Of a stretch of 41,998 nucleotides of DNA, positions 214 through 11,277 are shown piece after piece. The stretch covers positions 1 to 41,998 of the forward strand of contig VXMU01000113.1 in NCBI GenBank assembly GCA_009840945.1, given 5' to 3'. The notes beneath the pieces are model-generated. The model was not told the origin of the DNA. It did no database searches and was given only the letters and a program-made list of their open reading frames with translations. Both the position numbers and the translations under genes were made by a program. How positions within the stretch are numbered: position 1 is the first letter of the stretch; each line of letters opens with the position of its first letter. This DNA comes from Chloroflexota bacterium (GTDB lineage: Bacteria > Chloroflexota > Dehalococcoidia > UBA2979).

Positions 214-2433
214 TCACTCTTCCCAGGGTCGCCAGAAGGTCGGCCACTCCTGGTAGTCAGTGTCACCCCAGCACACCACCTCACCTGCCCCAGTCAGGGC
301 GCAAGCTCGCGCGTGGCCCGACGTGATCGCCTGATAGCGACCCGGAGGCGGGTCGACCGGCCCGTAGTCAAAAGCCCCGAGCTTCCCGCTGCTGAACGTC
401 CCCCGGCAATGCGCTTCGCCCGTCTCGGTCAGCGCGCAGTCGTGGTAAAGGCCCGTGGCTACGGCGACGTACGTCCCCGCCGGCACATACGGAGGCCAAA
501 CGCGCTCGTGGTCCCAGCAAGCAACTGTGTGTGCATCGGTCACACCGCAGGCGTGGAACCGGCCAACGCTGACCATGCGATACGGGCCGGGCGGCGGCGC
601 GTGGGTGGCCTCCTCCCGAGACGTTCTGAACCAGCAACCGGAGACCCTGGAGCCACCGCAGGCGCCGCTCCAGCGAGCCCAGTAACGGCTGAAGCAGACC
701 ACTTCGCGACTCTCCGAGAGAGCGCACCCGTGACCGCCCCAGCCCAGGCTGATGTTCTCAAGCAGACCCTGCGGGAGATCGGTCTCTTCGGGCCAGCAGA
801 CCACCACCCCCGATGCAGCGAGCGCGCACCCTCCATCGAAGTCGCCCGCACTGACCTCGACGTACGGTTCTGCTGCAGGAGGCGCTCGCCATGGAGGGGA
901 GTTTCCACCCCACCGGACCAACCCGCCTTCATCGGTGATGGCCCAGGTGCTGCCGTGGCCGGCGCTGATGGTGGTGTAGCGACCGCTGGGAACCTGGCTC
1001 TGCCCGAAGTTGTTCCAGCCCCAGCAGACGGCTTCCCGTTCGGCGGTGAGGGCGCAGGTGTGACCCAGACCATCGGTCACCGCAACGTACGGGCCTGAGG
1101 GTGGTGCGGGGCGATCGACCTTGTTCGGCACGCTCTCCCAGCAGACCGCAGTGCCGCTCTCCGCGAGTGCGCACGCGTAGGTGAGGGGCGGCTGGTCCCT
1201 CGAGATCCACAACCACTCCCCCGTGCTGACGGCCACATAGGGGCTGGGAGATGGCTCAGGCGGGGTCATCACCGACAGGGCCCCGCTTACATCTGACGAG
1301 ATAGATGAGCGATCCGCCTCGCAGATGACCGTCCCACTCCCGGTGATTGCGCACGTGTGAAACTCGCCCGGGCTGACCGCCACGTAAAGACCTGCGTCAT
1401 CGCCGGCAGACTGACGGCACCAGTCGTTCACCAGTGAGGAGGGCTCGCCTGCGCCGCTTCGATCGCAGAAGACATCGCCGACCAGCGCATAGTCGCCAGA
1501 TAGGCGGGAAGTTCCCGGGCCATAAGGGGTGAGGTGACCATGCCCGCTCCCCCAACAGATGAGGTCGCCTGCATCAGCGAGAGCGCAAGCCCTCAGAAAG
1601 TGGGCCCCCAGACCCGGGGAATCGTGCCTCATTCGGATTGCGGTGTACGAACCCGGAGGAGGGTCAGGGGGAAACAGCGCCTGGTCGAAGTCTGAGCCCT
1701 CCAGGCCCCAGCAGACGATGGCCCCTTCCTCGGTCAGCGCACACGTGTAGTGACCACTGGGGACGAGGCCACCGACATACCTCATATCCCACGCGATGGC
1801 GGTGTAGCGCGCCTGCGGCGCATCGCGGGAGGGGTCAGGTTCGTTGTCCGCAATCGGGCTTCCCCCCAGCGACCAACACGCGATCTCGCCGTCATCTGTG
1901 ATGGCGCAGGTAGTGTCGTGTTCGGCTTCGATGAACGTGTACGAGCCGGGCGGAGTGTCCCACGCCGCGGCGCTGACAATGTCCCAGCAGACCGCCTCGC
2001 CGTCCTCGGTCAGGGCGCAGGCGTGGGTCCAACCGACCGTGATGTCGGTGTAGACCCCCGCCGGCGCGTCGAGGATTGGAGACTGGGGGAAGCGGGATGT
2101 GCGCGAGTGGGGTTCGACAAGGTCCTTCGGCACCTCGGGTTGAGCAGGAGCTGGGGTCGGCGTGGGACTGGCTGTCGGGTCGGGCGTGGAGGTTGGGGCG
2201 GCGGTGGGTTCCGGTGTGGGCGTCGAGGTCGTCGGCGTGGGTCGACGAGGTGAGGAAGGCGCGGGCACAGCGGTGGCCGTCGGGGTGGCGGTAGGCAATG
2301 GCGCGATTCCCGACTCTGAGGGTTCAGCCGTCGTGGTGGGAGTGGGAGTGGGGGTCGGCGAACCGTCGTCGCAGGCGACAAGCGCCGCGGCAAGCGTCAC
2401 GACGATCAGGAGGCGGCCCGCTCTCGCTTGCAT
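214..2433 (-). CDS. RCC1-repeat surface lipoprotein
   Basis: A 739-residue exported protein. It begins with a hydrophobic signal ending in a lipobox (ALVAC, Cys at about residue 21), so it is probably lipid-anchored outside the membrane. Residues of about 25-100 are a Pro/Thr/Ser stalk. The rest is about 13 repeats of the type YxxIxxGxxHxCALTxxGxxxCWG, the pattern of RCC1/BLIP-II beta-propeller blades; most repeats carry two Cys that could form a disulfide in each blade. The family is diverse and the ligand cannot be read from sequence. The first ~105 codons are also present in a second copy near 5272 because they lie inside the tandem duplication. It follows the CoA-transferase gene but is separated from it by a strong hairpin. 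Confidence 0.8.
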   Translation of the reverse strand: MQARAGRLLIVVTLAAALVACDDGSPTPTPTPTTTAEPSESGIAPLPTATPTATAVPAPSSPRRPTPTTSTPTPEPTAAPTSTPDPTASPTPTPAPAQPEVPKDLVEPHSRTSRFPQSPILDAPAGVYTDITVGWTHACALTEDGEAVCWDIVSAAAWDTPPGSYTFIEAEHDTTCAITDDGEIACWSLGGSPIADNEPDPSRDAPQARYTAIAWDMRYVGGLVPSGHYTCALTEEGAIVCWGLEGSDFDQALFPPDPPPGSYTAIRMRHDSPGLGAHFLRACALADAGDLICWGSGHGHLTPYGPGTSRLSGDYALVGDVFCDRSGAGEPSSLVNDWCRQSAGDDAGLYVAVSPGEFHTCAITGSGTVICEADRSSISSDVSGALSVMTPPEPSPSPYVAVSTGEWLWISRDQPPLTYACALAESGTAVCWESVPNKVDRPAPPSGPYVAVTDGLGHTCALTAEREAVCWGWNNFGQSQVPSGRYTTISAGHGSTWAITDEGGLVRWGGNSPPWRAPPAAEPYVEVSAGDFDGGCALAASGVVVCWPEETDLPQGLLENISLGWGGHGCALSESREVVCFSRYWARWSGACGGSRVSGCWFRTSREEATHAPPPGPYRMVSVGRFHACGVTDAHTVACWDHERVWPPYVPAGTYVAVATGLYHDCALTETGEAHCRGTFSSGKLGAFDYGPVDPPPGRYQAITSGHARACALTGAGEVVCWGDTDYQEWPTFWRPWEE

Positions 2434-2485
2434 GCCAAAAGCGTACCTTGTCGTGGTCGAGCATTACGTCACCCGATGACAGCAA

Positions 2486-2526
2486 CCCTCTCCCCTCCGG
2501 GCGCGACAGGGCCGGAGGGGAGAGGG
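2486..2526 (-). terminator. Long GC-rich hairpin between genes
   Basis: Fifteen perfectly complementary bases (2486-2500 against 2512-2526, arms rich in CTCTCCCCTCCGG and its complement) enclose an 11-base loop. It lies 10 bases after the CoA-transferase stop and 52 bases before the RCC1-like start. There is no clear T run, so it is either a GC-type terminator or an intergenic palindromic repeat. Confidence 0.5.
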
Positions 2527-2536
2527 GCCCGGAGGG

Positions 2537-3775
2537 TCAGGCGAGGTCGACCGGGGGGCGTTCGTCCCATACGACCTGGGCGGCGACGAGGGCCTCCACC
2601 TCGTCGGCGTCGAGGCCGAGCCGCTCGGCGAGCACCTCGCGGGTGTGCTGGCCCATGTCGGGGGACGCGCCGCGGATGCCGCCGGGCGTGCGGGAGAGCT
2701 TCACCGGCGTGTTGACCAGCGGCAGCGTGCCGAGCTTCGGGTGCTCGACCGGCACCAGCATCTCGCGCGCCGCGACCTGCGGGTGCGCCGCCGCCTCGGC
2801 GATGTTGTTCACCGGCCCGCACGGGATCCCGTACGGCTCGAGGCGTTCCAGCCACTCGGCCGTCGGGCGCTTGCGGAACGCCTCGTTGAGCAGCGGCTCG
2901 AGCTCCGCGTGGTTCGCCGAGCGCTGGTGGCTCTCGGCGAATCGAGGGTCGTCGATGAGCTCGACGAGCCCGAGCTCGGAGCAGAGCAGCGCCCACTGGT
3001 TGGGCACTCCCCACGCGAGCGCGATCACGAGATGGCCGTCGGCAGTGGGGAACGCCTGGAACGGGACGGCCCAGGAATGCCTCGTGCCCATCGGCTCGGG
3101 CGTCTGACCGGTGAGGTGGTAGCGCAGGAACGCGTTCTCGAGGATGGCGAGCTGGCAGTCGAGCATCGAGACGTCGACGAACTGGCCGAGGCCGGACTGG
3201 TCGCGCTCGCGCAGCGCGGAGAGCACGCCCACCGCGCCGAAGAGCCCGCCCGCGATGTCACCGAGCGAGAGCCCGGGCCGCACGGGCCCGCCGCCGGGCT
3301 CGCCGGTGATCGACATCACGCCGCCCGCGCCCTGCACGACCACGTCGAGGGCAGGGCGGTCGCGCATCGGCCCCGACTGCCCGTAGCCGGAGATGGCGAG
3401 GTAGACGAGCTTCGGGTGCACCTCGGCGAGGGTCTCGTAGCCGAGGCCGAGTCGTTCGAGGGTGCCGGGTCGGAAGTTCTCGACGATCACGTCGAACTCG
3501 GGGACGAGCCGCAGGAACAGCTCGCGGCCCTCGTCGAGCTTGAGGTCGATGGCAATGCTGCGCTTGCCGCGGTTGATGCTGAAGAAGTAGCCCGACTCGC
3601 CGTCCACCAGCGGGCCGGTGGTGCGCGCCACGTCGCCGAAGGGCGGGCGCTCGCACTTCACCACGTCGGCGCCGAGGTCGGCGAGCACCATCGTGCAGTA
3701 GGGGCCGGCGAGCACCCAGCTGAGGTCCAGCACCCGCACGCCCGCGAGCGGGCCGCCGTTCGTGTCCCCGGTCAT
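2537..3775 (-). CDS. CaiB/BaiF-type CoA-transferase (first copy)
   Basis: A 412-residue class III CoA-transferase, which moves CoA between an acyl-CoA donor and a carboxylic acid through enzyme-bound anhydride intermediates. The N-terminal GVRVLDLSWVLAGPYC, the INRGKRSIAIDLK segment and the NFRPGTLERLGLGY motif are typical. Asp173 in LSLGDIAGG sits where the catalytic Asp of the family is expected. Length is normal. The start ATG overlaps the stop of the EamA gene by four bases (ATGA), so the two are translated together. The protein is identical to the copy at 5376-6614. The substrate is unknown; carnitine, oxalate and many other acids are used within the family. Confidence 0.9.
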   Translation of the reverse strand: MTGDTNGGPLAGVRVLDLSWVLAGPYCTMVLADLGADVVKCERPPFGDVARTTGPLVDGESGYFFSINRGKRSIAIDLKLDEGRELFLRLVPEFDVIVENFRPGTLERLGLGYETLAEVHPKLVYLAISGYGQSGPMRDRPALDVVVQGAGGVMSITGEPGGGPVRPGLSLGDIAGGLFGAVGVLSALRERDQSGLGQFVDVSMLDCQLAILENAFLRYHLTGQTPEPMGTRHSWAVPFQAFPTADGHLVIALAWGVPNQWALLCSELGLVELIDDPRFAESHQRSANHAELEPLLNEAFRKRPTAEWLERLEPYGIPCGPVNNIAEAAAHPQVAAREMLVPVEHPKLGTLPLVNTPVKLSRTPGGIRGASPDMGQHTREVLAERLGLDADEVEALVAAQVVWDERPPVDLA

Positions 3776-4710
3776 CGCGTCTCCTCGCTTCCGTGTCCCG
3801 TGGCCGCGCCGAGCGGGACGCCCGGCCCGCCACGCAGCGCCACGTAGACCCCCGAGAGCAGCACGGCTGCCCCGACCAGTTCGAGCAGTGTAGGGGGCTC
3901 ATCGAGCAGCGTGGCGCCGATCAGCGCCGCGCCCACGGGCTCGCCGAGCGCCGCCACGGTGACCATCACGGCGGGCAGCGAGCCCAGCGCCCACGTCAGC
4001 GAGCCGTGCCCGATGAGCTGCGGCACCAGCGCCAGCAGCACGATGAACCCGTACGCGTCCCCCGGATGCCCCGTGACGGAGCCGCCCGTGAGCGTGAGCG
4101 TCACGAGGAGCGCGCAGGCCCCGACGCTGTTCACGATCGCCGCGTAGCTCACGTTCGAGAGCTTCGCGCGCGCCCGCCGCCCGGCGAGGAAGTACCCGGC
4201 GACGAACGCCGCGCCGAGCAGCGCGAAGAAGTCGCCGCGCAGCGACGTGGCCTCGCCGAAGTCCTCGCCCGCGAGCATCAGCGCGCCCGACGTGGAGATG
4301 GCGATGCCGAGCATGAGCGGGCGCGTGAGGCGTTCGCCGAGCAGCAGCCAGCCGCCGACGCCGGCGAAGAGCGGCTGCGTCGCCACGATCGCCGTGCTCG
4401 CCACGAGCGAGGTGTCCTGCACCGATGCCACCCAGAAGCCGAAGTGCGCGCCGATGCACAGCCCCGCCAGCGCGATCACCGCGAGGTCGCCTCGGCCCAG
4501 CGAGCGCAGCTCGCCGCGCCGCAGCAGGACCGTGACGACGAGGAACGGGACGGCGGCGAACGTGAGCCGCAGCGCCGCGACCGTGAGCGCGGGCGCCTCG
4601 GCGAGCCGGATCAGCGGCGCCGCCCACGAAATCGCGGAGACGCCGACGAGCAGCGCGAGCCACTCGCGGACCTGCATGCGCGTGCGAGCCTGGGGGAGTG
4701 GTGTCGTCAC
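3772..4710 (-). CDS. EamA/DMT-family transporter (first copy)
   Basis: A 312-residue membrane protein with about ten hydrophobic segments arranged as two EamA repeats, typical of drug/metabolite transporters of the inner membrane. The motifs STAIVATQPLFAGVGGWLLLGERL and LGEPVGAALIGATLLDEPP are the usual repeat signature at the end of each half. It overlaps the CoA-transferase start by four bases. The exported or imported compound cannot be inferred; the coupling suggests a link to the organic acid or CoA ester handled by the transferase. Identical to the copy at 6611-7549. Confidence 0.9.
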   Translation of the reverse strand: MTTPLPQARTRMQVREWLALLVGVSAISWAAPLIRLAEAPALTVAALRLTFAAVPFLVVTVLLRRGELRSLGRGDLAVIALAGLCIGAHFGFWVASVQDTSLVASTAIVATQPLFAGVGGWLLLGERLTRPLMLGIAISTSGALMLAGEDFGEATSLRGDFFALLGAAFVAGYFLAGRRARAKLSNVSYAAIVNSVGACALLVTLTLTGGSVTGHPGDAYGFIVLLALVPQLIGHGSLTWALGSLPAVMVTVAALGEPVGAALIGATLLDEPPTLLELVGAAVLLSGVYVALRGGPGVPLGAATGHGSEETR

Positions 4711-4714
4711 GGCG

Positions 4715-5272
4715 TCACGCTAGCACCCCGCCCGGCCGAGGTGACGCCTCTGCGAGCGCTACGAGCCGCCGTACTCCTCGAGGATGTCCTCGATCATCTC
4801 CCGCAGCTCGCCGGGCCGCGGCGCTGTGTGGAGGCGCCTCTGCACGTCGTCCGAGTTCGGCGCGATGGTGGCAAAGTTGGGGTGATAGTCGAGCTCCAGA
4901 TCCCGAGCGAGCGCGCGATCCGCGCTCCTGGCGTAGTCGAGGATCACGAAGTTCGACAAGGTCCTTCGGCACCTCGGGTTGAGCAGGAGCTGGGGTCGGC
5001 GTGGGACTGGCTGTCGGGTCGGGCGTGGAGGTTGGGGCGGCGGTGGGTTCCGGTGTGGGCGTCGAGGTCGTCGGCGTGGGTCGACGAGGTGAGGAAGGCG
5101 CGGGCACAGCGGTGGCCGTCGGGGTGGCGGTAGGCAATGGCGCGATTCCCGACTCTGAGGGTTCAGCCGTCGTGGTGGGAGTGGGAGTGGGGGTCGGCGA
5201 ACCGTCGTCGCAGGCGACAAGCGCCGCGGCAAGCGTCACGACGATCAGGAGGCGGCCCGCTCTCGCTTGCAT
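4715..5272 (-). pseudogene. Chimeric truncated RCC1-lipoprotein gene at the duplication joint
   Basis: The first ~105 residues (signal peptide, lipobox and P/T stalk) are identical to those of the 214-2433 lipoprotein. At the joint the frame runs into the thioredoxin-like remnant in the wrong frame and ends after 185 residues at 4715, giving an Arg/Ala-rich tail with no recognisable fold. All RCC1 repeats are missing. If expressed it would be a lipid-anchored stalk with a nonsense tail. Confidence 0.8.
4759..4954 (-). pseudogene. 3' remnant of thioredoxin-like gene made by the duplication
   Basis: This repeats the last ~65 codons of the selenoprotein-like gene at 7598-8557, from the NFVILDY segment to the C-terminal EEYGGS. 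It lacks the signal sequence, stalk, the UGA codon and the active site. It is joined at 4951-4954 to the 5' part of an RCC1-like gene but in a different frame, so it is unlikely to be a functional protein. Confidence 0.85.
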
Positions 5273-5324
5273 GCCAAAAGCGTACCTTGTCGTGGTCGAG
5301 CATTACGTCACCCGATGACAGCAA

Positions 5325-5365
5325 CCCTCTCCCCTCCGGGCGCGACAGGGCCGGAGGGGAGAGGG
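5325..5365 (-). terminator. Duplicated GC-rich hairpin
   Basis: Exact second copy of the 15-bp stem and 11-base loop found at 2486-2526, lying after the second CoA-transferase gene and before the truncated RCC1-like gene. Confidence 0.5.
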
Positions 5366-5375
5366 GCCCGGAGGG

Positions 5376-6614
5376 TCAGGCGAGGTCGACCGGGGGGCGT
5401 TCGTCCCATACGACCTGGGCGGCGACGAGGGCCTCCACCTCGTCGGCGTCGAGGCCGAGCCGCTCGGCGAGCACCTCGCGGGTGTGCTGGCCCATGTCGG
5501 GGGACGCGCCGCGGATGCCGCCGGGCGTGCGGGAGAGCTTCACCGGCGTGTTGACCAGCGGCAGCGTGCCGAGCTTCGGGTGCTCGACCGGCACCAGCAT
5601 CTCGCGCGCCGCGACCTGCGGGTGCGCCGCCGCCTCGGCGATGTTGTTCACCGGCCCGCACGGGATCCCGTACGGCTCGAGGCGTTCCAGCCACTCGGCC
5701 GTCGGGCGCTTGCGGAACGCCTCGTTGAGCAGCGGCTCGAGCTCCGCGTGGTTCGCCGAGCGCTGGTGGCTCTCGGCGAATCGAGGGTCGTCGATGAGCT
5801 CGACGAGCCCGAGCTCGGAGCAGAGCAGCGCCCACTGGTTGGGCACTCCCCACGCGAGCGCGATCACGAGATGGCCGTCGGCAGTGGGGAACGCCTGGAA
5901 CGGGACGGCCCAGGAATGCCTCGTGCCCATCGGCTCGGGCGTCTGACCGGTGAGGTGGTAGCGCAGGAACGCGTTCTCGAGGATGGCGAGCTGGCAGTCG
6001 AGCATCGAGACGTCGACGAACTGGCCGAGGCCGGACTGGTCGCGCTCGCGCAGCGCGGAGAGCACGCCCACCGCGCCGAAGAGCCCGCCCGCGATGTCAC
6101 CGAGCGAGAGCCCGGGCCGCACGGGCCCGCCGCCGGGCTCGCCGGTGATCGACATCACGCCGCCCGCGCCCTGCACGACCACGTCGAGGGCAGGGCGGTC
6201 GCGCATCGGCCCCGACTGCCCGTAGCCGGAGATGGCGAGGTAGACGAGCTTCGGGTGCACCTCGGCGAGGGTCTCGTAGCCGAGGCCGAGTCGTTCGAGG
6301 GTGCCGGGTCGGAAGTTCTCGACGATCACGTCGAACTCGGGGACGAGCCGCAGGAACAGCTCGCGGCCCTCGTCGAGCTTGAGGTCGATGGCAATGCTGC
6401 GCTTGCCGCGGTTGATGCTGAAGAAGTAGCCCGACTCGCCGTCCACCAGCGGGCCGGTGGTGCGCGCCACGTCGCCGAAGGGCGGGCGCTCGCACTTCAC
6501 CACGTCGGCGCCGAGGTCGGCGAGCACCATCGTGCAGTAGGGGCCGGCGAGCACCCAGCTGAGGTCCAGCACCCGCACGCCCGCGAGCGGGCCGCCGTTC
6601 GTGTCCCCGGTCAT
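5376..6614 (-). CDS. CaiB/BaiF-type CoA-transferase (second copy)
   Basis: Identical 412-residue class III CoA-transferase, with the catalytic-position Asp173 in LSLGDIAGG. This is the copy directly downstream of the complete redox operon and its own EamA gene, so it keeps the original upstream context. The start overlaps the EamA stop by four bases. Confidence 0.9.
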   Translation of the reverse strand: MTGDTNGGPLAGVRVLDLSWVLAGPYCTMVLADLGADVVKCERPPFGDVARTTGPLVDGESGYFFSINRGKRSIAIDLKLDEGRELFLRLVPEFDVIVENFRPGTLERLGLGYETLAEVHPKLVYLAISGYGQSGPMRDRPALDVVVQGAGGVMSITGEPGGGPVRPGLSLGDIAGGLFGAVGVLSALRERDQSGLGQFVDVSMLDCQLAILENAFLRYHLTGQTPEPMGTRHSWAVPFQAFPTADGHLVIALAWGVPNQWALLCSELGLVELIDDPRFAESHQRSANHAELEPLLNEAFRKRPTAEWLERLEPYGIPCGPVNNIAEAAAHPQVAAREMLVPVEHPKLGTLPLVNTPVKLSRTPGGIRGASPDMGQHTREVLAERLGLDADEVEALVAAQVVWDERPPVDLA

Positions 6615-7549
6615 CGCGTCTCCTCGCTTCCGTGTCCCGTGGCCGCGCCGAGCGGGACGCCCGGCCCGCCACGCAGCGCCACGTAGACCCCCGAGAGCAG
6701 CACGGCTGCCCCGACCAGTTCGAGCAGTGTAGGGGGCTCATCGAGCAGCGTGGCGCCGATCAGCGCCGCGCCCACGGGCTCGCCGAGCGCCGCCACGGTG
6801 ACCATCACGGCGGGCAGCGAGCCCAGCGCCCACGTCAGCGAGCCGTGCCCGATGAGCTGCGGCACCAGCGCCAGCAGCACGATGAACCCGTACGCGTCCC
6901 CCGGATGCCCCGTGACGGAGCCGCCCGTGAGCGTGAGCGTCACGAGGAGCGCGCAGGCCCCGACGCTGTTCACGATCGCCGCGTAGCTCACGTTCGAGAG
7001 CTTCGCGCGCGCCCGCCGCCCGGCGAGGAAGTACCCGGCGACGAACGCCGCGCCGAGCAGCGCGAAGAAGTCGCCGCGCAGCGACGTGGCCTCGCCGAAG
7101 TCCTCGCCCGCGAGCATCAGCGCGCCCGACGTGGAGATGGCGATGCCGAGCATGAGCGGGCGCGTGAGGCGTTCGCCGAGCAGCAGCCAGCCGCCGACGC
7201 CGGCGAAGAGCGGCTGCGTCGCCACGATCGCCGTGCTCGCCACGAGCGAGGTGTCCTGCACCGATGCCACCCAGAAGCCGAAGTGCGCGCCGATGCACAG
7301 CCCCGCCAGCGCGATCACCGCGAGGTCGCCTCGGCCCAGCGAGCGCAGCTCGCCGCGCCGCAGCAGGACCGTGACGACGAGGAACGGGACGGCGGCGAAC
7401 GTGAGCCGCAGCGCCGCGACCGTGAGCGCGGGCGCCTCGGCGAGCCGGATCAGCGGCGCCGCCCACGAAATCGCGGAGACGCCGACGAGCAGCGCGAGCC
7501 ACTCGCGGACCTGCATGCGCGTGCGAGCCTGGGGGAGTGGTGTCGTCAC
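6611..7549 (-). CDS. EamA/DMT-family transporter (second copy)
   Basis: Identical to 3772-4710: 312 residues, about ten membrane segments, two EamA repeats. It starts 48 bases after the stop of the upstream selenoprotein-like gene on the same strand, so it may be read through from the redox operon. Confidence 0.9.
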   Translation of the reverse strand: MTTPLPQARTRMQVREWLALLVGVSAISWAAPLIRLAEAPALTVAALRLTFAAVPFLVVTVLLRRGELRSLGRGDLAVIALAGLCIGAHFGFWVASVQDTSLVASTAIVATQPLFAGVGGWLLLGERLTRPLMLGIAISTSGALMLAGEDFGEATSLRGDFFALLGAAFVAGYFLAGRRARAKLSNVSYAAIVNSVGACALLVTLTLTGGSVTGHPGDAYGFIVLLALVPQLIGHGSLTWALGSLPAVMVTVAALGEPVGAALIGATLLDEPPTLLELVGAAVLLSGVYVALRGGPGVPLGAATGHGSEETR

Positions 7550-7597
7550 GGCGTCACGCTAGCACCCCGCCCGGCCGAGGTGACGCCTCTGCGAGCG

Positions 7598-8557
7598 CTA
7601 CGAGCCGCCGTACTCCTCGAGGATGTCCTCGATCATCTCCCGCAGCTCGCCGGGCCGCGGCGCTGTGTGGAGGCGCCTCTGCACGTCGTCCGAGTTCGGC
7701 GCGATGGTGGCAAAGTTGGGGTGATAGTCGAGCTCCAGATCCCGAGCGAGCGCGCGATCCGCGCTCCTGGCGTAGTCGAGGATCACGAAGTTCACCCGGT
7801 CCTGGAACTCTAGTCGGAGCCCGTTCACGACAGGCCGTGCCCTGCGGCAGTGGGGTCAGGTTTCGGAGCTGACGACGACGAGCGTCGGCCTCCCGTTCAC
7901 GGGGAGCCACGCTCCCGTCGAATCGACACGGTCGTCTGACAGGTCGTCGGCGGTCACCGTGACTGCTGGGCCGGTCGGGAAGTCGTACTCGGGCTCGGGC
8001 GTCGGGCTCGCCGTCACGGTCGCCTCGGGTGTTGCCGTCGAGGTGGCCTCGGGGGTTGCGGTCGCCGTTGCGACGGCCGTCGAGGTGGCCTCGGGGGTCG
8101 CAGTCGCGGTCGCGACGGCTGTCGCGGTCGCCTCGGGAGTTGCCGTCGTCGTCGCCGCGGCCGTCGCGACTGCGGTCGCCGTTGCCGTGGCTGTCGAGGT
8201 CGGCGTCGGGTCGGGCGTGGCCGTCACGCGGATGGTTGGCGGCTGCGTGGCGGTCGGGCGGGGCGTCGGCGCTGCGGTGGGGGTAGGCGCGGCGGTTGCC
8301 GTCGCCGTCCGCGTGGCGGTCGCGGTAGCCGTCGCGGTCTGCGTGGCGGTGGCCGTAGCCGTCGCTGTCCCGGTCGTGGTCGCCGTCTCGGTCTCGGTCG
8401 CCGTCGCGGTCTGGGTCGCCAGCGCCGCCGTGGCGACGCTCTCCGGCTCGGCCGGCTCCTCGTCGTCGCCGGTGCAGGCGACCACGAGCGCCGCGGCGAG
8501 GGCGAGCGCGGCCACGGCGAGGAGCGAGCGTCTGGGTGGGCCCTCGGGCCTGCTCAT
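7598..8557 (-). CDS. Probable selenocysteine thioredoxin-like lipoprotein (UPHC)
   Basis: Read as one 319-residue protein with TGA at 7856-7858 decoded as Sec234. The start ATG follows a GGAGG site 24 bases after the upstream paralogue. The signal ends in a lipobox (LVVAC), then comes a very long Ala/Thr/Pro stalk (about residues 30-190) and a thioredoxin-like domain. The frame stays open and homologous on both sides of the TGA: GRPTLVVVSSET before it, PHC and RARPVVNGLRLEFQDRVNFV after it, closely matching the neighbour at 8582-9097. The TGA occupies the first Cys of a CxxC motif, giving U-P-H-C, like the CPHC of DsbA. A cis-Pro-like segment (YHPNFATI) follows. The expected role is thiol/disulfide or peroxide chemistry outside the membrane. 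If TGA were a stop, the product would be a stalk with no active site. Its 3' end was copied into the duplication. Confidence 0.8.
7819..7835 (-). promoter_or_regulatory. SECIS-like hairpin after UGA, second redoxin
   Basis: On the coding strand, bases 21-37 after the TGA form GCCTGT / ACGGGC, a six-pair stem with one U-G pair and the loop CGTGA. The equivalent hairpin in the neighbouring gene starts at exactly the same distance. Bacterial SECIS elements lie just inside the coding region after UGA and usually have a G in the first two loop positions, as here. The U-G pair in place of C-G keeps the stem despite the base change. Confidence 0.6.
8037..8162. repeat. 42-bp tandem repeats coding the Ala/Thr/Pro stalk
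   Basis: Three imperfect units of 42 bp begin at 8037, 8079 and 8121 (gtcgaggtggcctcgggggt and variants). Each encodes 14 residues of the TPEATxTAVATATA type in the stalk of the lipoprotein. Such repeats readily expand and contract, so stalk length probably varies between strains. Confidence 0.8.
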
Positions 8558-8581
8558 GGGACCTCCGCCCTCGCCCGCCCG

Positions 8582-9097
8582 CTAGCTACCGAGCGAGGCG
8601 ATGAGCTCGTCGAGGACCTCGCGCAGCTTTCGCTCCGGCGTCGGCCCGAAGAAGCGCGTCGCCACATCGTCCGCGCCGGGGCCGACCGTCGCGTAGGCGG
8701 GGTGCGCGGCGATGCCGAGCCGCTCGGCGAGCGCGCGGTCCTCGCGGATATCGTAGTCGAGGATCACGAAGTTCACGCGGTCCTGGTACTCGTTGCGGAG
8801 CCCGTGCACGACGGGCCGCGCCGGAGCGCAGAACGGTCACCAGATCGCATCGACGAAGACGAGCGTCGGCTGCCCGTTGTCCGGCAGCCACGCGCCCGTC
8901 GAGGGCACGTGGTCCTCGGGCGACGTGTACCCCGCGGCCACCGTGACGGCGGGCCCGTTCGGGAGGCCCTGCGAGGCGCCGACGCGGTCCGCCGTCTGCG
9001 AGTCCGACGCGCTGTCGCCGCACGCCACGGCGAGGAGCGCCCCGAGCGCGAGCAGCGCGGCGAGCGCACCGAGTGGGTTGGCGATGAGCCTGATCAC
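8582..9097 (-). CDS. Probable selenocysteine thioredoxin-like lipoprotein (UPFC)
   Basis: Read as a 171-residue protein with TGA at 8837-8839 decoded as Sec87. The GTG start overlaps the stop of the TlpA-like gene (GTGA), so translation is coupled. Signal peptide with lipobox LAVAC (Cys26), a short linker, then a thioredoxin-like domain: QPTLVFVDAIW, UGA, PFCAPARPVVHGL, NEYQDRVNFVILDYD, and a cis-Pro-like AHPAYATV. Trp followed by U-P-F-C is the thioredoxin WCxxC site with Sec for the first Cys. The frame is open on both sides for 86 and 84 codons and the whole domain aligns with the next gene, which has its own TGA at the same column. TGG encodes Trp and TGA ends many other genes here, so recoding of all TGA is unlikely. 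Expected to be a membrane-anchored redoxin outside the cell membrane, working with the adjacent TlpA-like protein. Confidence 0.82.
8800..8816 (-). promoter_or_regulatory. SECIS-like hairpin after UGA, first redoxin
   Basis: Bases 21-37 after the TGA form GCCCGT / ACGGGC, six perfect pairs around the five-base loop CGTGC; an outer GCG/CGC can add three pairs with a two-base bulge. The loop has G at its second position and begins 27 bases after the UGA, inside the range usually allowed for bacterial SECIS elements. The same hairpin at the same offset occurs in the paralogue. Confidence 0.62.
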
Positions 9098-9843
9098 TGG
9101 ACGACCGTGCCCCCCTCGGTGTCCGCGTCGGCGACGCCGGTCTCGAGCAGGTTGCCGACGACCGGCCCCAGCGCTGTGGTGCGCACGACGCCGTTGCGGT
9201 CGATGAAGAACGTGGCGGGGAGCCCTCGCACGCCGTAGCGCGCGGCGACGTCGCCGCGCGTGGTGTCGAATACCACGACGAACGTGAACTCGTTCGCCTC
9301 GATGAACTTGGTGGCCGCGCCCACGGTGTCGTCGCGGAGGAAGTTCACGGCGACCACCACGAGGTCGTCCGTGCCATCGGCGCCACGGTGGTCCCACAGC
9401 TCCTGGAACTCGGGCATCTCCTCGCGGCACGGCGGGCACCAGGTGGCCCAGAAGTTGAGCACCACGGTCTTCCCCCGGAAGTCGGAGAGCATGACGACGT
9501 TGCCGTCGAGATCGGTCAGCCGGAAGTCCGGCGCAAGCTCGTCGAGCTGGACCGAGCGGTCGTCCACGAGGCCGATCTGGACCATCGTGGTTTCGACTGC
9601 GTCGTCTCCGGACGCGTCGTCCCCGGCGGCCCCATCGTCCGTCGCGCCATCGTCGGTGGCGCTGACGTCCGTCGTGCCGTCCTCGGAGGCGTCGGCCGTC
9701 TGGGTGGCGGTGGGGACGGGGACAGCGACCATCACCTCGTCGTCGGTGAGGATCTCGCGCTGCACGTACATCGCGCCGAGGACGACGACGATCGCGACGA
9801 CGATGGTGTAGCGGATCAGCCTCCGCGTCAGCGACTCTTCCAT
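9094..9843 (-). CDS. TlpA/ResA-like membrane-anchored thioredoxin
   Basis: A 249-residue protein with one N-terminal membrane segment (residues about 11-26), an Asp/Ala/Thr-rich linker and a TlpA/AhpC-TSA type domain from about residue 100. The active site is FWATWCPPC (Cys136, Cys139), followed by REEMPEF and a cis-Pro at GVRGLPATFFID. This family reduces disulfides outside the membrane, for instance during cytochrome c maturation. It is the first gene of a likely operon: the following UGA-containing redoxin starts within its stop codon. It may pass electrons to, or receive them from, the two Sec redoxins; that is inference. Confidence 0.9.
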   Translation of the reverse strand: MEESLTRRLIRYTIVVAIVVVLGAMYVQREILTDDEVMVAVPVPTATQTADASEDGTTDVSATDDGATDDGAAGDDASGDDAVETTMVQIGLVDDRSVQLDELAPDFRLTDLDGNVVMLSDFRGKTVVLNFWATWCPPCREEMPEFQELWDHRGADGTDDLVVVAVNFLRDDTVGAATKFIEANEFTFVVVFDTTRGDVAARYGVRGLPATFFIDRNGVVRTTALGPVVGNLLETGVADADTEGGTVVQ

Positions 9844-9906: not shown

Positions 9907-11193
9907 TTAACCGCCGGCCAGGATCACGCGTGTCTCCGGCTTGAACACCGACCACGCGAACCAGAAGTGGCTGCCGGACACCACCGCCTCGAGCTGCGAG
10001 CCGGCCAGCGGCCCCTCGACCGCCTGGCCGAGCACGTTCCACGTGCTGCCCGTGCCGACATCGACGATCGCGCCGTCGCGCGCCTCGAACGCCAGGCGCT
10101 CGCCGTCGAGCACCGGGATGAAGGCGCCGGCCGAGCCGACGTTGCGGCTGCCGACGATGAACGCGTCGTCGAGCGCGGAGACCGCGCCCGACTGCCAGAA
10201 CGCCACCACTGCCTGGCCGCCGATCTCCGCCTCGATCACGACGTGCTCGCTGAGCGCCCTCCACGCGAACGCGGCGGCCTCCCCGTTGACCTCGACGGCC
10301 AGCACGCGCTCCTTGGCGTCCAGGCGGGCGTCCTCGAACTCCGGGACGTCCACGACCATGCGGGACTGGGTGTCGTAGAAGACGTACGGGTTCTCGCCGT
10401 AGGGGCGGATGGTCCCGGTGTCGCGGTTCAGCACCATGCCGCCGGGGTAGGCCGCGCCGAACTCCTCGAACGAGACGATCTGCGCTGGCAGGAAGTCGAG
10501 GAGCCTGCCGGCGTCGATGCCGACGATGGCCTCGCCGGAGAGCTGCTGCCACAGCGACTCGTTGGTGCGGTCGTACATGATGAGGTCGCTGCGGCGCAGC
10601 TTGCCGGAGACGCCGAACTCGCGGACCTCGCCGTCCACGGTGCGCGCGAAGACGATCGCCGAGTTGCAGAGCGGGCAGTACGTCACGATCACCGGCTCGC
10701 CACCGACCACGTCGTTCACGATCTCGTGCCACGTCAGGATGTGCAGCGGGTAGGCCCGCGCGTCACCCTCGTGTACGAACGAGATCACCGGCTCTTGCGG
10801 CGCCAGCCACGCGCTCGCGTCCTCGACGGTGTCGAACTGCGGCGCGTCGATCGAGGGGATCGCGTCGGGCGGCAGCAGGGCGATGATGTCGGCGAGGTCG
10901 ACCGTCGCCTTCGTCACGTCGAGCGAGGGGAAGTCCGTCTGCAGCCGCCGCGCCACGAACTCGCGCTGCGCCTCGCGCGCGGCCTCGGCGGAGGGGCTCG
11001 GCGTCGGTGTCGCGGTCGGCGTGGCCTCGGCCGTGGCCTCGGCGGCTGCCGTGGCGGTGGCGGTGGCCGTCGCCTCGGACGTCGCGGCGGGCCGGTCGTC
11101 GGCCATCATCGCGTCGTCGTCATCGCCCGTGCAGGCGGCGAGGAGCGCGGCGGCGGCCAGCCCGAGCGCGAGCAGGGTGCTCCGCAGGTACAT
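9907..11193 (-). CDS. DUF3179-domain lipoprotein
   Basis: A 428-residue protein. I chose the ATG at 11193 because AAGGAGG lies just upstream and it opens directly on a signal peptide with lipobox LLAAC (Cys21); an upstream in-frame ATG at 11232 would bury the signal. A short Ala/Thr/Pro stalk is followed by the DUF3179 domain, recognised by RAYPLHILTWHEIVND and by TYCPLCNSAIVFAR, which holds a CPLC pair. The function of DUF3179 is not known. It lies 63 bp before the TlpA-like gene on the same strand, placing another CxxC-bearing envelope protein beside the redox operon. Confidence 0.88.
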   Translation of the reverse strand: MYLRSTLLALGLAAAALLAACTGDDDDAMMADDRPAATSEATATATATAAAEATAEATPTATPTPSPSAEAAREAQREFVARRLQTDFPSLDVTKATVDLADIIALLPPDAIPSIDAPQFDTVEDASAWLAPQEPVISFVHEGDARAYPLHILTWHEIVNDVVGGEPVIVTYCPLCNSAIVFARTVDGEVREFGVSGKLRRSDLIMYDRTNESLWQQLSGEAIVGIDAGRLLDFLPAQIVSFEEFGAAYPGGMVLNRDTGTIRPYGENPYVFYDTQSRMVVDVPEFEDARLDAKERVLAVEVNGEAAAFAWRALSEHVVIEAEIGGQAVVAFWQSGAVSALDDAFIVGSRNVGSAGAFIPVLDGERLAFEARDGAIVDVGTGSTWNVLGQAVEGPLAGSQLEAVVSGSHFWFAWSVFKPETRVILAGG

Positions 11194-11277
11194 CGGTCCT
11201 CCTTCGATGTGTGGGAGCGCACGATCCAGCATAGGTCACGAGCGCCGCACGAACCCTCGACGCGCCGGGTCCCGGCG

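Follow-up and report, generated by a model that had tools for sequence, protein, structure and literature searches.

Two adjacent genes on the minus strand of a Chloroflexota contig each have an open frame interrupted by a single TGA, raising the question of whether these codons are ordinary nonsense or are read as selenocysteine (Sec) and, if the latter, what the products might do. The window, i.e. the whole stretch of DNA that was analysed (41,998 nucleotides), belongs to a genome of 136 contigs that is 92.5% complete (the source genome). A first-pass annotation had placed both TGAs at the first Cys of a CxxC motif, with the second Cys retained; re-translation with TGA read as U confirmed this arrangement (WUPFC and TUPHC), the span (7598-9097), the TGA positions and the presence of exactly one in-frame TGA in each gene. 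The features concerned are as follows.

8582..9097, minus strand: gene A (171 aa), predicted thioredoxin-domain selenoprotein with a lipid anchor and Sec87 in WUPFC
7598..8557, minus strand: gene B, a 319-aa paralogue of gene A whose long linker is rich in Thr, Ala and Pro; predicted Sec234 in TUPHC
8837..8839, minus strand: in-frame TGA at the first CxxC Cys in gene A (IW-U-PF-C), predicted to encode Sec
7856..7858, minus strand: in-frame TGA at the first CxxC Cys in gene B (ET-U-PH-C), predicted to encode Sec
9094..9843, minus strand: TlpA/ResA-like thioredoxin gene, WCPPC (Cys form), directly upstream of gene A

Gene A runs from a GTG at 9097 to a TAG at 8582-8584, and gene B from an ATG at 8557 to a TAG at 7598-7600, its long linker being of low complexity. 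The GTG of gene A overlaps the TGA stop of the upstream TlpA-like gene (GTGA) and a GGAGG site precedes the ATG of gene B, an organisation that fits a single operon. The redoxin domains of A and B are 54% identical, with homology on either side of the TGA, as had been claimed. Our preferred reading, with a probability of about 0.9 that rests mainly on its selenoprotein, lipobox and fold parts, is that A and B are exported, paralogous UxxC lipoproteins on a thioredoxin scaffold, in which UGA is decoded as Sec and which would act as extracytoplasmic selenol/thiol oxidoreductases.

A search of 99 related genomes with A and B together as the query identified 29 strong relatives (orthologues and paralogues) in 26 genomes, all of the same family and all with a TGA in the matched frame. 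In 29/29 the codon occupies one and the same column, neither Cys nor stop variants occurring among them, in genes that span 35-76% GC. Purifying selection is evident in frame beyond the TGA: pN/pS, taken as the median of all pairs, is 0.54 in frame, compared with 1.24 and 1.48 when the frame is shifted, and dN/dS is 0.07-0.11 in the closest AT-rich pairs and 0.16 between gene A of the source genome and gene A of G002 (SB0666_bin_12); some GC-rich pairs, which are divergent and have few silent sites, give values near 0.5-1. The earlier argument that sequencing error or random nonsense mutation is unlikely is thus borne out by both conservation and selection. A scan of genome contigs returned only four loci, and a search covering 393 genomes of the class found close members confined to the same family and distant ones in the family f33. 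The A+B pair is a genus-level trait, most relatives being single-copy and some distant ones having three copies; in the tree, the gene B sequences from three species within the genus make up a clade of their own, and the second pair in G001 descends differently.

Bacterial SECIS elements are characterised by a hairpin shortly after the UGA with a G in its apical loop (PMC1088965), and an element of this type just downstream of the UGA is what Sec insertion, as first proposed, would need. A covarying SECIS-like hairpin follows each UGA.

8799..8817, minus strand: SECIS-like hairpin in gene A, identified by covariation; columns 23-41, numbered from the U of UGA; CGUGC loop
7818..7836, minus strand: SECIS-like hairpin in gene B, identified by covariation; CGUGA loop

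The hairpin lies at nucleotides 23-41 from the U of UGA in 29 family sequences; its loop, which in genes A and B starts 26 nt after the UGA, contains an invariant GU. Since folding of the A and B hairpins as single sequences gave results no better than shuffles, covariation was used instead. Helix 2 is 93.7% paired in the 29 sequences; for helices 1 and 2 together, doubly changed cells number 18, compared with 5.1 in shuffles (none of 500 as high), and slid registers all score far lower than the true register. By way of example, a Gly-to-Arg change (G to A, column 37) is compensated by a silent C to U in a Pro codon (column 27). Independent evidence for helix 2 comes from 19 sequences unused in its definition, mostly from elsewhere in the phylum, in which it is 90.2% paired, with 17 doubly changed cells vs 5.9 (0/500 shuffles as high). 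In f33 the stem is displaced by about two bases. Rfam searches at gathering and relaxed thresholds gave no match to a SECIS family.

The genes selA, selB, selC and selD, to which the first-pass annotation had pointed, are all present in the source genome, encoding SelA, SelB, a tRNA-Sec with anticodon UCA and a SelD of the Sec type (its motif reads GGUAGK). Within the family, SelA was found in 24/26 genomes with the gene (one of these being a fragment) vs 11/18 members without it (Fisher p=0.02, or 0.06 when the fragment is left out); the two carriers that gave no SelA match, G024 and G030, are 83% and 73% complete.

Beyond the family, homologues with Cys at the Sec column were sought and found, mostly in genomes without SelA, such that a UGA conserved among relatives is accompanied by Cys homologues at the same column, as is typical of selenoproteins. 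Cys forms are present at L155, L158, L160 and L162. In a phylum-wide tree, the WUGSC forms L166/L170 group with the WCGSC forms L158/L162, and L156/L161 (WUPNC/WUPSC) group with L160 (WCPKC); SelA is present in the genomes of the paired Sec forms, whereas those of L158, L160 and L162 gave no SelA above the family cut-off. Overall, SelA is found in 31/34 genomes with TGA forms vs 1/9 without (p=9e-6, uncorrected for shared ancestry, with 4/9 of the negatives being f33 genomes picked for having no hit); the three misses among the 34 are in genomes that are 72-81% complete. The Sec/Cys exchange can be compared naturally with SelA presence or absence in this set.

These results bear on two ways in which the TGAs might encode something other than Sec. 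A lone in-frame TGA would look the same if the genes were pseudogenes, contained sequencing errors or terminated there, and the assembly is indeed fragmented and contains a truncated copy of gene B (4762-4953) within an exact tandem duplication; the same TGA in all of the relatives, the selection past it, the covarying hairpin and the complete Sec machinery, however, make ordinary nonsense highly improbable. Reassignment of UGA to Trp, or general read-through, is more improbable still: a changed code would also leave the frame open through TGA, but the neighbouring TlpA gene, like several others in the window, ends at an ordinary TGA stop, so UGA is not reassigned and a global change of code was rejected. 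Furthermore, the UGA is at the catalytic Cys column, where homologues have Cys, and tRNA-Sec, SelA and SelB are present.

With respect to the protein itself, an AlphaFold model of gene A has a mean pLDDT of 83, with the redoxin domain mostly above 90; its element order is thioredoxin-like, and fold as well as profile comparisons with the PDB point to thioredoxins. The invariant Pro133 occupies the place of the cis-Pro which, together with UxxC, marks the thioredoxin superfamily. PF00085 and PF13098 are the Pfam models matched by family proteins, the latter in 29/29 members at E <= 0.01, with gene A scoring 23 vs 27 bits, i.e. under the gathering score. Thioredoxin_4 gave a weak match in 2/29 members only, the nearest relative being thioredoxin (PF00085, TIGR01068), although assignment of gene A to the TrxA equivalog TIGR01068 was rejected (26.6 bits against a cut-off of 96.8). 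No NCBIfam model passes its cut-off for family members, and automatic annotation therefore probably splits or truncates these proteins. Both N termini contain a candidate lipobox.

9020..9031, minus strand: lipobox AVAC of gene A, Cys26, predicted from sequence
8474..8485, minus strand: lipobox VVAC of gene B, Cys28, predicted from sequence

Almost every member whose N terminus can be read has a lipobox (none was found in G027), so the family proteins should be anchored outside the cytoplasmic membrane. Along with the Sec machinery, the hairpin and the Cys homologues, these predicted lipoboxes support the original interpretation of both proteins as lipid-anchored Sec redoxins.

We envisage that tRNA-Sec and SelB would decode the UGA, aided by the downstream hairpin, and that after export A and B would be tethered by a lipid to the cytoplasmic membrane on its outer side. 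There, the Sec selenolate may attack a disulfide, sulfoxide or peroxide, with the second Cys resolving the intermediate; conceivable substrates are disulfides of extracytoplasmic proteins, methionine sulfoxide and peroxides. Electron flow in the reductive direction is somewhat favoured. A tentative alternative is that A and B are real selenoproteins but function as a DsbA-like oxidase/isomerase or a metal(loid)-handling redoxin, rather than as general disulfide/peroxide reductases. DsbD/CcdA is the usual reductant of extracytoplasmic reductases, and its transmembrane domain (PF02683) was not found in the source genome at E <= 0.001, which counts in favour of this alternative; a thioredoxin fold is equally compatible with oxidase, isomerase and reductase activity, and one catalogued UxxU family is a metal-binding protein (PMC13188914). 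Against such roles, the sequences are nearest to thioredoxin, with few and weak Thioredoxin_4 matches, and the loci examined revealed no recognisable metal-resistance or Dsb genes next to them, the neighbours there being TlpA-like, DUF3179, EamA, CaiB-like and M20 peptidase genes. Such an oxidase, isomerase or metal-handling function is thus possible but the less likely outcome, and we retain the oxidoreductase reading given above.

The TlpA-like thioredoxin and a DUF3179 lipoprotein are encoded upstream within the genus (G000, i.e. the source genome, G001 and G002). In the rest of the family these two are mostly missing from around the gene, and EamA, CaiB-like CoA-transferase and M20 peptidase genes are often nearby.

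9907..11232, minus strand: DUF3179 lipoprotein gene, YCPLC (Cys form), near the Sec genes

DUF3179 is catalogued as a selenoprotein family with UxxC/T (PMC13188914); the DUF3179 lipoprotein beside A and B (9907-11232) carries Cys, not Sec. Several extracytoplasmic thioredoxin-like proteins are encoded in the source genome despite the lack of a PF02683 match at the above threshold. The tandem duplication in the window is exact (100%), comprising 2112-4954 and 4951-7793 with a 2839-bp period and a 4-bp GTTC overlap at the junction, and is either recent or an assembly artefact. It copies the EamA and CaiB-like genes together with the last part of gene B, the copied end of which is joined, out of frame, to the start of another lipoprotein.

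In the f33 genus g94, tandem arrays of three genes (UxxC, UxxC, UxxU) are present in six genomes, with a seventh having two array genes near a contig end. UxxU was also found in G145, G293 and G316 (f33), in G727 (another family of the phylum) and in G012 (the family of the source genome), and the gene B orthologue of G002 reads UPHU, both of its active-site Cys codons being TGA.

L115, L116, L124-L153 (G225, G260, G268, G276, G252, G339): triple arrays of predicted seleno-lipoproteins, third gene reading TGA GGA CCG TGA
L057/L053, VXTU01000148.1, 184-195: UPHU motif of the gene B orthologue, at a contig end

The UxxU count refers to 13 inspected sequences, two more double-TGA places (G659:C35 and G534) being listed only. 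In a tree of these short proteins, which has several long branches, the g94 UxxU sequences form one supported clade, those of G145, G293, G727 and G012 fall in another, and the UxxU orthologue of gene B lies apart from both, implying that UxxU probably arose more than once. In the UxxU genes the loop begins 15-17 nt from the second UGA and 24-26 nt from the first, spacings at which a single hairpin could serve both codons. It is likely that the Chloroflexota possess an old and expanding family of lipid-anchored Sec-thioredoxins, which formed pairs and triples by duplication and in which the second Cys was then replaced as well in several lineages; the outcome would be natural UxxU (diselenide) thioredoxins whose two UGAs, nine bases apart, share a hairpin. 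The UxxU members offer a test of whether one SECIS directs two Sec insertions at this spacing and of what a diselenide does in a thioredoxin, and the family as a whole allows natural CxxC, UxxC and UxxU forms to be compared on a shared thioredoxin scaffold.

UxxC selenoproteins with a thioredoxin fold are well established (PMC13188914 Table 1; PMC9312934). The Sec-containing thioredoxin (PF00085, PMC13188914) resembles A and B in its fold, in having Sec for the N-terminal Cys of CxxC and in its SECIS-like hairpin; A and B differ in having a lipobox, tandem paralogy and a score far below the equivalog cut-off, and in that some of their relatives are UxxU. The thiol:disulfide interchange selenoprotein (PF13098) has UxxC in common with the family, but the lipid-anchored clade is not named there. 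UxxU is known as a natural diselenide motif from SelL and Prx-like proteins (cited in PMC2398784), in which both redox residues are Sec, as in the G002 orthologue of gene B and the third genes of the f33 arrays; those proteins are peroxiredoxin-like, whereas the UxxU proteins here combine a thioredoxin-type domain with a lipobox, a type absent from the three mentions of UxxU in PMC13188914.

The suggestion that a lipoprotein pair of this kind is undescribed stands in part. We found no description of lipid-anchored thioredoxin-type tandem selenoproteins, or of UxxU proteins of this type, in the open-access literature, a scope that makes this weak evidence of novelty; the kind as such is not new, given that NF041057, the Rcas_1661 family thioredoxin-like (seleno)lipoprotein (DsbG-like in PMC13188914), is already catalogued. 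That family shares with A and B a Chloroflexota name-giver, a lipoprotein nature, a thioredoxin-like domain and UxxC. As a parent for A and B it was rejected, because its model misses the A/B locus (C125) and matches other loci of the same genome that have no TGA; it gave no match among the family members (alignment A4) at E <= 0.01. The open-access literature yielded nothing on Rcas_1661 or SAR202 selenoproteins. The A/B clade belongs to a large, apparently unnamed family, adding a large membrane-anchored set of predicted selenoproteins outside the cytoplasmic membrane, from a phylum scarcely covered in the selenoprotein papers searched. Separately, three adjacent NF041057-like genes at L076 (G062:C4:375454-377769) each have an in-frame TGA, and tandem seleno-lipoproteins thus occur in the NF041057 subfamily too.
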